Shown here in pieces: positions 31,293 through 34,398 of a DNA stretch of 64,000 nucleotides. The first letter of the stretch is position 1. Every line of letters starts with the position of its first letter. The stretch is taken from assembly GCA_003151515.1 (NCBI GenBank), contig PLXS01000027.1, forward strand, positions 1 to 64,000, written 5' to 3'. A model generated the notes under the pieces. That model was given only the letters and a program-made list of their open reading frames with translations, was not told where the DNA came from and ran no database searches. Source of the DNA: Opitutaceae bacterium (GTDB lineage: Bacteria > Verrucomicrobiota > Verrucomicrobiia > Opitutales > Opitutaceae). The position numbers were made by a program, and so were the translations under genes.

Positions 31293-31325
31293 GGGTGTTT
31301 TGCGGGGGGTTTAGACAACGCGTGC

Positions 31326-31973
31326 CTACGGGTGCGGCGCCGCCTTCCCCGCGAGAGGCGTCACCGAGGAAAGCGTCTGATTTGACGATTGGTTCGGCGC
31401 CAAAAGGGCCATTCGTCGGGTCAAATCCCTGTGCAGGCGCGCGTCGAACGGCAACATAGAATGGAGTAGAGCTGGAATGCAGACATTGTCACCAAAAGGC
31501 AAAATGGCGCTCGATGGGGGTCGAACCATGCCATCGAAAGGGGTCCAATAGGATGTCGTTGGCAATCCCTCTATGAAACGAGCGCCCCGGTCCAGTTTTC
31601 TCAAGAATTCACTTCCCTTGCGCATATCGCGAACACCACGACTGGGATAGAAATAGGCGCTGTAGGTTCCCCTGTGCGGTCCAGCAATAGAGAAAAACGC
31701 CCTAGCTCTCCCAATGCCGTCACCACTCTGGAGGTAATGACGAGCGACTAATGCACCCATACTAAATCCAACCACGACGAGGTCCCGCGTCGCAGGCACG
31801 GCATCACGAACAAATGCCGCCAAATGCGCAGACAATCTTTCGAGTCCGCCACGCCCGTCGTTCGGACGGAGGGGTGACAGGTGGCACGTATGGCCAGCCT
31901 GCGATAAACAACCCGCCAACCTTCGCATGATGGATGGCCCGTTTAGAAAGCCAGGAACAAGAAGAACGTCCAT
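31326..31973 (-). CDS. Alpha/beta hydrolase (lipase-like)
   Basis: MDVLLVPGFLNGPSIMRRL...DLVVVGFSMGALVARHYLQ (GxSxG). Confidence 0.75.
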   Translation of the reverse strand: MDVLLVPGFLNGPSIMRRLAGCLSQAGHTCHLSPLRPNDGRGGLERLSAHLAAFVRDAVPATRDLVVVGFSMGALVARHYLQSGDGIGRARAFFSIAGPHRGTYSAYFYPSRGVRDMRKGSEFLRKLDRGARFIEGLPTTSYWTPFDGMVRPPSSAILPFGDNVCIPALLHSMLPFDARLHRDLTRRMALLAPNQSSNQTLSSVTPLAGKAAPHP

Positions 31974-32010
31974 AAGACCGCCGAGCGTTGAGGTCATCCG
32001 CACCAACGGA

Positions 32011-32027
32011 GGCGCGGCTCCCGCGCC
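32011..32027. repeat. REP-like GC-rich hairpin (copy B)
   Basis: GGCGCG-GCTCC-CGCGCC with similar 3' flank (CGCA...CGTGA) to copy A. Confidence 0.5.
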
Positions 32028-32170
32028 GCAGGAGGCGTGATGGACGGGGGCGTCGGCTCCGACGATCGGTTCGGCATTCGCCACCCTTGCGATGTAAAGG
32101 TAAGCACTTCGCTAGATTACTCGGAGCTAGGCAGGCTCAGCTTGTGCGTCAACGCGAGTACGTCGCAGCA

Positions 32171-32872
32171 TCAAAGGCTAATATCTCGTTCCTTTTCAGG
32201 AGTTCTCTGTTGGGAGGGTTCATTCGTAAGTTTCTCCCACCAATCTGGGTCCATCGAATAAAAGGCCGAATTAGGTGAGGCACCTTTCGAACGATTCAAT
32301 TCAATCGCGCGGGAAAGACTCAACACAATGGGCTGCATCTTAACAAAGATCGCCTGTAGATCAGGCACCTCTAGCATCTGTGCGCGATTGAACGCCTCTT
32401 TCAGGGGAGTGCCGTTAATCGCGCCCTGCTCTAAAATGAACGCGATGTCTTTCAAATCCTCCTTATCGTTTCGCATCATCTTCGTCAAAACTAGATCAGC
32501 AGTAGATGGGCGATAAAGGCGCAGGAACTTGTAGTGCTCAGACGGAATCTTGACGACCTTCTCGAGCCAATCTGCGGTAAGCGCCACTTGCCGATCGGTA
32601 AACAGATGGGACACGTACAAACCAGAGGGCTCCAGTTGTTTGTTCGTCTTGTCAATCGCATCCCAAAATTGTGAATCGGCCTTAATTCTCGACATCTCGA
32701 TGGACGGAAGGATGGCATCCACGTCCTGGGTCGCGCCGAACCTTAGACCCTCATCTCCAAAACCCAGTGCCAGGGCGGCCCTCCCGAAGAGGACGATGCG
32801 GGTCTCCTTCTCCAGGAATGAATCTAAGGTCTTAAGGATGTGCTGCGGATTATTTACTGGCAATGCAGCCAC
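32171..32872 (-). CDS. Nucleotidyltransferase-fold protein (AbiEii/DUF6036-like)
   Basis: LDSFLEKETRIVLFGRAALALGFGDEGLRFGATQDVDAILPSI resembles the NTase G[GSR]xAxAL...T.DVD signature. Likely GTG start at 32872, overlapping the upstream gene. Confidence 0.6.
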   Translation of the reverse strand: MAALPVNNPQHILKTLDSFLEKETRIVLFGRAALALGFGDEGLRFGATQDVDAILPSIEMSRIKADSQFWDAIDKTNKQLEPSGLYVSHLFTDRQVALTADWLEKVVKIPSEHYKFLRLYRPSTADLVLTKMMRNDKEDLKDIAFILEQGAINGTPLKEAFNRAQMLEVPDLQAIFVKMQPIVLSLSRAIELNRSKGASPNSAFYSMDPDWWEKLTNEPSQQRTPEKERDISL

Positions 32873-33369
32873 TGCACATTCCCTCCTCCGTTCCGCGTGA
32901 CGCCAGTTTGAGACACAAATCTGCTCCAATTCGGGAGCACTCCATCGGCAACCGCTTCCTGCTTCCCAAGCAGAATCTCCAAGCGCACCCAATAGCTCCT
33001 GTTCTCCACGTCGTGGGTATGGCCAGCCGTTGCGATATAGGACAATACCCTTCCGACCCTCTCGCGCCTGGCAACCCGCGCCAATTTCTCGACATCGCAT
33101 CGACTCGTCAATTGTGCGGCGCACCTAATCGCGATCGGTTCATATTCATTCTCACCGAGAAGCAGCAAAGCCACCAATTCCTCATTCAAGATCGCTTCAA
33201 ATCCCGGATCGCGTTCAGCGGGCGGAAACAATGACGCGTAATGGCGGCATCCTCGCGCAACAGCCAGTCGTATGAAATCGCCAACGGTGTTGAAGCCCAG
33301 ACGGTTAGCTCTTCGAAGCAAGGCGGAGGAATTCCGGATCTCCCCAAGTTCTTTTGCGAGCGTTGCCAT
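32854..33369 (-). CDS. Hypothetical partner protein of the NTase gene
   Basis: MATLAKELGEIRNSSALLRRANRLGFNTVGDFIRLAVARGCRHYASLFPP...NVQWLHCQ*; 3' end overlaps the predicted NTase start by 19 nt. Confidence 0.55.
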   Translation of the reverse strand: MATLAKELGEIRNSSALLRRANRLGFNTVGDFIRLAVARGCRHYASLFPPAERDPGFEAILNEELVALLLLGENEYEPIAIRCAAQLTSRCDVEKLARVARRERVGRVLSYIATAGHTHDVENRSYWVRLEILLGKQEAVADGVLPNWSRFVSQTGVTRNGGGNVQWLHCQ

Positions 33370-33696
33370 ATTACGGAATGAGCACGTGCAACCGAAAAGC
33401 TACTATTCAGATCGAGAACTGCAAGAGGTTCCCCAACGTCATCCGAGTCGAACGTTGCTCATGCCACTTCTAGCGGCACGGCCATTCATACGATCTTCTA
33501 TAGATCATTGCCTTATGGAGTTTATGGTCGCACTTAAGAGGCAGACGACAATTGGGATTCGGGTGACCTCAACTTGTGACCGGAAACCAGCCACGGTATA
33601 TTCTGAGCGCCATTATGCTCCCACCTTGAAAACCGAGCGCGCGATGAATCGGGCTGCCGCGGGACCTATATCGCAAAGTCCCGGGGGACAGGGGCC

Positions 33697-34398
33697 CTAC
33701 CCCGCCGACATGACGGCCGTCGCAAAGGCCAGCACGAGTGGGGGCACTTCACCCCTCAGCGCGGCGCGTTCCGGCTGAAACAGCACCCCGGCGAAGAACG
33801 GGTGCGATGCAAGCTCGGCGCCCCTGATCTCGCCGGCGTCATCCTTTGCGGTGAACCTGAGGCCGGCCTTCTCGAGCAAGGCCTGGTGCTCGCGGTTGAG
33901 CCCGTAATTGCACCGGTATCCCTCGGTCGCCACCGAGCCCCCGTAGGCTTTCGCGAGCAGGCTTCCCTCCTCGAATCGCACCGTGCCCGTCTTCTCAACC
34001 AGAGAGCACCTCAGCTTCGTGACCACCAACGAGCGTCCGGCAGGGTTTGTCTCGGCATGGTCGGCATCCGGCATTCCGGCCGCGGTGCGCGCAATCTCTA
34101 TGAGCGCGTGCTGGAAGCCGCCGCAGGTGCCAAGGAAAGGTCGGCCCGCGGTGCGCGCGAAGCGGACGGCGTCGATCGCGCCGGCCGTGTTCTCATAGGG
34201 GCTGGCCGGGACAAGCCACACGCCCGAGAAACGGGCGAGGTCGCCCGCCGCATCCGATATCGCCCGGGTCGCGACCCATTCCCACTCAAGGCCGGCGCCC
34301 AGGCGGTCGCGGCAGAGCCCCAGGGCGACCGGTATCGCCCGGTGGGCCGTGACCTTCGCGTCGTGGTCTCCGACAAGCGCAATCAGCCTGCGGCCCAT
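33697..34398 (-). CDS. Class I glutamine amidotransferase-like protein (CTP synthase C-terminal type)
   Basis: RFARTAGRPFLGTCGGFQHALIEIAR...HPFFAGVLFQPE; overlaps the lnt 3' end. Confidence 0.75.
   Translation of the reverse strand: MGRRLIALVGDHDAKVTAHRAIPVALGLCRDRLGAGLEWEWVATRAISDAAGDLARFSGVWLVPASPYENTAGAIDAVRFARTAGRPFLGTCGGFQHALIEIARTAAGMPDADHAETNPAGRSLVVTKLRCSLVEKTGTVRFEEGSLLAKAYGGSVATEGYRCNYGLNREHQALLEKAGLRFTAKDDAGEIRGAELASHPFFAGVLFQPERAALRGEVPPLVLAFATAVMSAG

Follow-up and report, generated by a model that had tools for sequence, protein, structure and literature searches.

Overlapping genes between attI-like and attC sites in an uncultured Opitutaceae bacterium: a probable toxin-antitoxin pair of a new type

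Nucleotidyltransferases of the AbiEii type carry four motifs, hG[G/S], RxxxDhD, K..R and +DxxD (motifs I to IV; PMC3985639), and in MenT1 the corresponding stretch reads T39-x-D41-x-D43, T39 being the phosphoacceptor (PMC11375011). In HEPN-MNT pairs, neutralisation through nucleotide transfer is established (PMC7641770, PMC11586414). Toxin-antitoxin (TA) cassettes stabilise chromosomal integrons (PMC11023631), and integron-borne anti-phage cassettes have been described (Darracq 2025, Kieffer 2025 and Getz 2025, as referenced in PMC12444791). In the open-access literature searched, no paper was found on the nucleotidyltransferase family DUF6036, and none was centred on the integrons of uncultured Opitutaceae.

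The window, a stretch of 64,000 nucleotides, comes from an uncultured bacterium placed by its named relatives in the Opitutaceae (Verrucomicrobiota). A sequence-only reading had drawn attention to two minus-strand ORFs overlapping by 19 nt in a lower-GC island of acquired DNA. Both ORFs, named A and B, are present (Table 1), and the stretch from 31976 to 33452 has a GC content of 53.9%, compared to 67.8% for the window; the acquired DNA can now be described, with high confidence, as an integron gene cassette. On the minus strand the order is GATase-like gene, attI-like site, A-B, attC1, hydrolase gene, attC2 and thioredoxin-like gene. From the overlap we infer that A and B are probably translationally coupled. 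Purifying selection acts on A as well as on B (dN/dS of 0.09-0.17 in the comparisons with unsaturated synonymous sites), which, together with their co-conservation in independent genomes, argues against a chance overlap of ORFs. No sigma-70 promoter was recognisable upstream of A, which counts against a TA reading.

Table 1. Positions in the window of the gene pair and of the neighbouring array features
Feature	Position	Strand	Description
GATase-like gene	33697-34398		related to CTP synthase glutaminase domain
attI-like site (TGGCCGTGCCGCTAGAAGTGGCATGAGCAACGTTCGAC)	33447-33484	minus	degenerate; aligned with the L089 attI and the L177/L178 sites
gene A, 171 aa	32854-33369	minus	first of the pair; no known family; proposed antitoxin
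A/B overlap, 19 nt	32854-32872	minus	end of A at 32854, GTG of B at 32872
gene B, 233 aa, GTG start at 32872	32171-32872	minus	DUF6036 nucleotidyltransferase; proposed toxin
attC1	31980-32075	minus	closes the A-B cassette; 84.5 bits, E=3.5e-22 in own genome
alpha/beta hydrolase (lipase-like)	31326-31973	minus	second cassette; Abhydrolase_6 E=4e-6
attC2	31308-31398	minus	closes the hydrolase cassette; 61.5 bits, E=6.6e-15

B, in which an AbiEii/DUF6036-like nucleotidyltransferase signature had been noticed, does match DUF6036 (PF19502; E=3.3e-8, 33.9 bits, above the Pfam cut-off of 23.6), its motif stretch being FGRAALALG...TQDVDAILP, and 17 of 18 B homologues match the same family at E<=0.1. 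PF08843 (AbiEii/DUF1814) was matched neither by B at E<=1 nor by any of the homologues. An alignment of 34 B sequences shows no exception at G30, D50 and D52 and either T or S at position 48 throughout, and D126, K131, R134, D136, D139 and D142 do not vary in any sequence that covers the respective position; the catalytic residues of B are intact, and the earlier proviso that an active site might be lacking falls away. These residues (G30, D50xD52, K131, R134 and D136xxD139) resemble AbiEii motifs I to IV and the MenT1 stretch, with a spacing different from that of the AbiEii motifs and without the motif II arginine, the -4 position being occupied by G46 in this clade, and its absence counts against a TA reading. 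T48 occupies the position of the MenT1 phosphoacceptor T39. The AlphaFold model of B (pLDDT 89.3) was compared to PDB structures using Foldseek, and the top matches include the nucleotidyltransferases TUT4, MenT1 and PolX, none of them significant (E 0.1-0.6). These non-significant matches and the absence of a PF08843 match also count against the TA reading.

No family was found for A in Pfam, NCBIfam, PADLOC or PHROGs, nor for any of 22 A members in Pfam. Its AlphaFold model is confident (pLDDT 92.8, pTM 0.89) and predicts an all-alpha protein whose C-terminus forms a beta hairpin, yet a Foldseek search returned noise only (best E 1.3 in PDB and 0.31 in BFVD), in line with the initial remark that the partner has no recognisable fold. 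The further remark that it resembles neither AbiEi nor HEPN proteins agrees with motif, Pfam and fold comparisons, all of which were negative: the HEPN Rx4-6H motif is absent from A, H43 being lost in distant members, no HEPN family or HEPN fold was matched, and the comparison with the winged helix-turn-helix (wHTH) AbiEi gave no Pfam family among the 22 members and no fold match. R39, R82, W127, R150 and W167 are invariant in A and E63 is nearly so; such conserved residues count against an antitoxin role, as they are unusual for a fast-evolving antitoxin. A is mostly basic and B mostly acidic, which would suit the formation of a complex. A weak lead to a PIN protein from the comparison with PDB sequences (1v8p, E=0.03) was dropped, as there was no common catalytic pattern and no fold support.

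The distribution of the pair was then considered in 252 Opitutaceae genomes. Matches to A came from 25 of them (threshold 1e-3; several of the A-only matches are fragments) and matches to B from 18 (threshold 1e-10). All 18 genomes with B contain A as well, so that the co-conservation on which the sequence-only reading had made its proposal depend is indeed seen. Three genomes (G019, G180 and G004) have an intact or nearly intact A but no intact B, and in G186 a second copy of A is of this kind. Across Verrucomicrobiota, almost all intact loci have B directly 3' of A, most often with an overlap of 4 nt (ATGA), and the 19-nt overlap recurs in four sister loci (L020, L021, L023 and L089). In genome G284 the gene order is swapped (B-A) and the 4-nt overlap retained; this genome has two such copies (L068 and L083), in one of which B is internally deleted.

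The pair occurs as integron cassettes in this genus and beside nrdAB in Didemnitutus and Lacunisphaera. According to rough counts, made with a simple ORF picker and some identifications by eye, about 7 of the 17 loci outside the genus lie within surface-polysaccharide clusters, next to epimerases, DegT aminotransferases, sugar nucleotidyltransferases and flippases, and about 6 of the 17 have other TA genes within five ORFs of A-B. The TA genes found near A-B in polysaccharide clusters include MNT-HepT in L164 and AbiEii in L026. The latter belongs to a second nucleotidyltransferase pair (L026:4785-5761), composed of an AbiEii PF08843 protein and a 100-aa partner without Pfam family, which lies about 2.3 kb away from A-B and belongs to an Opitutaceae genome of 7.3 Mb. 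The association with defence islands, suggested earlier as a check, was sought among the neighbours and no tie to recognised islands was seen; the PADLOC matches were mostly to generic helicase-type models. Neither A nor B was found in plasmid searches, and a viral-contig search with B gave no match.

A-B, computed to lie between attI-like and attC sites, is a near-obligate overlapping pair across Verrucomicrobiota in which a DUF6036 nucleotidyltransferase with intact catalytic residues follows A. On balance it is probably a TA-type module with B as the toxin, and would then represent a type of toxin-antitoxin pair not described before. An antitoxin role of A and an AbiEii/MenT-like toxin role of B are favoured by the gene order and because B is never found without A, intact A being sometimes alone. 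The resemblance of B to AbiEii and MenT1 in its motifs, the basic A and acidic B, and the TA genes near A-B in loci outside the genus also speak for the TA reading. B would transfer a nucleotide to cellular RNA and thereby stop growth, the likeliest target being the tRNA acceptor end, as for MenT. A would be made first from the common message and would bind and restrain B, and it might also promote phosphorylation of T48, at the position of MenT1 T39.

An alternative that we consider unlikely is that B serves the cell as a nucleotidyltransferase, for instance in the metabolism of surface polysaccharides or of RNA, with A as its obligate subunit. The loci in polysaccharide clusters, which count against the TA reading, and the conserved charged residues of A would both be accounted for, but no polysaccharide genes surround A-B as an integron cassette or beside nrdAB, it is distributed patchily (in 18-25 of the 252 genomes), and polysaccharide clusters are exchange hotspots that here also contain TA genes (L164, L026). 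The reverse polarity, in which A is the toxin and B an antitoxin that adds nucleotides to it, as MntA does on HepT (HEPN-MNT, type VII), seems to us rather unlikely, since a toxic A predicts the opposite of what is found, namely B never without A and intact A alone. Its appeal lies in the compact nucleotidyltransferase within an overlapping pair, in the alpha-helical A with invariant charged residues and in the established HEPN-MNT mechanism, which we count in its favour, but A has neither the Rx4-6H motif nor a HEPN Pfam or fold match, and B, unlike minimal MNT proteins, carries K..R.D..D motifs and continues into an additional helical region at its C-terminus.

The sequence 3' of B is organised like an integron attC site, GCCGAAC...GGAGCCGACG...hairpin...GCGGATGACC...GCTCGGC, with GCCGAAC as R'' and GCTCGGC as R' and with degenerate L arms. 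The ATG of the hydrolase gene lies 6 nt past the attC1 core, and the 3' end of this ORF overlaps attC2, whose 3' arm is degenerate. An attC covariance model was built from eight sites, including attC1 and attC2 of the window, which are themselves degenerate. It matched in 9 of the 13 genomes of the genus, with up to 45 matches per genome, frequently arranged in arrays with a single gene between neighbouring sites, and gave no match in the other four, which are also without IntI and without A-B. Folding asymmetry in favour of the bottom strand is a feature of integron attC sites. The bottom strand of clean attC sites folds strongly (z=-3.8 and -4.3); for the clean site of the own genome at C18:820-917 (GCCGAAC...GTTAGGC), z was -3.84 and no shuffle was as good. 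The attC1 and attC2 sites alone fold weakly.

An IntI integrase (TIGR02249) was detected in 6 of the 13 genomes of the genus, with 240-259 bits, just below the curated cut-off of 265. For the integrase on contig L089 of a sister genome, TIGR02249 is the best NCBIfam match (259.6 bits, E=4e-77, cut-off 265), XerC scoring 90 bits, and the order at this locus is divergent integrase, attI (...TGAACCGCTATCTTCGGTATAAACAACGTTAGAC), HicAB-like cassette, attC and A-B. The REP-like hairpins noted at first are real hairpins but belong to integron attC sites and not to REP elements, an identity rejected with the attC model: that they are ordinary REP-type repeats and A-B a plain horizontally acquired operon is very improbable, as multiple copies with a common hairpin and the weak folding of attC1 and attC2 would fit it, but not an IntI adjoining attI and attC in L089, dense arrays with one ORF between sites, the complete absence of sites from genomes lacking IntI and A-B, or the R''/R' and L''/L' arms, extrahelical bases and strong bottom-strand folding of the clean sites.

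The degenerate attI-like site recurs at the same chromosomal locus in two sister species (L177 and L178), 3' of their GATase orthologue, and is followed in L178 by a BrnT-like cassette. Out of 500 shuffles, 2, 1 and 69 aligned as well as the attI-like site of the window to L089, L178 and L177, respectively, so that the alignment is weak against L177. Orthologues of the GATase-like gene are present only in the attC-bearing genomes of the genus, and the gene marks an integron insertion locus. No integrase was found with TIGR02249 in the window's own assembly (92% complete); the search gave weak tyrosine-recombinase matches of up to 79 bits, and an own-genome IntI is not claimed. In our reading, the window array is an integron that has decayed or become separated from its integrase, and the attI-like site makes A-B its first cassette.

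TA-like cassettes recur in the genus, a BrnT-like one in L178 (G003:C193) and a HicAB-like one in L089, both beside attI and both identified by eye from the translations. In the own genome, HicB/HicA-like genes and a further ORF are flanked by two attC sites at the end of a contig (G000:C18:1-917, L104), which suggests that the assembly breaks at integron repeats. Further matches of the attC model in this genome, some of them weak, are at G000 C41:174820-177917, C10:54451 and C23:7413. A cassette gene with its own attC in a sister locus (L021:6151-6771) resembles a retropepsin-type aspartic protease and has no NCBIfam match.

Within an integron, A-B would penalise the loss of the cassette, and stabilisation, as known for TA cassettes (PMC11023631), would be a natural role for it. 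The pair may additionally act against phages, which is speculation, as no link to defence islands was seen; the basis for it is the published integron work cited in PMC12444791. A more far-reaching proposal, which we regard as doubtful, is that A is the founding member of an antitoxin family of its own, with a fold absent from the PDB, and restrains a DUF6036 nucleotidyltransferase toxin by directing its phosphorylation at T/S48, the pair being a phylum-wide stress or anti-phage module of Verrucomicrobiota that integrons took up as a cassette in a single genus of the Opitutaceae. With these observations, the uncharacterised family DUF6036 gains a conserved partner, itself without any family, and an integron platform (IntI, attI and attC arrays) with TA-like cassettes among its cargo is documented in uncultured Opitutaceae. 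If B is a toxin, AbiEii/MenT biology would be extended to another nucleotidyltransferase family with an unrelated antitoxin.

Among the described systems, AbiE/MenAT shares with A-B a two-gene operon with the partner first, and with B a pol-beta nucleotidyltransferase with hG, T/S-x-DhD, lysine and +..D..D motifs and a likely hydroxyl phosphoacceptor before DxD. However, B belongs to DUF6036 and not to PF08843, its motifs III and IV are merged (K131-x-x-R134-x-D136-x-x-D139), and A has neither similarity to the wHTH AbiEi nor a matching fold. HEPN-MNT (HepT-MntA, type VII) is likewise an overlapping pair with a pol-beta nucleotidyltransferase, but A lacks both the motif and the fold of HEPN proteins, B is larger and the genetic asymmetry is opposite. 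The integron-borne anti-phage cassettes referenced in PMC12444791 resemble A-B as cassette modules of unknown function with a defence-like protein, whereas A-B is absent from the PADLOC models. The Vibrio superintegron TA cassettes belong to another host phylum than A-B, which is from Verrucomicrobiota, and to other families than its putative toxin and antitoxin, but as in Vibrio a TA-like module is carried in an attC-closed cassette, and HicAB-like and BrnT cassettes are present in this genus as well.
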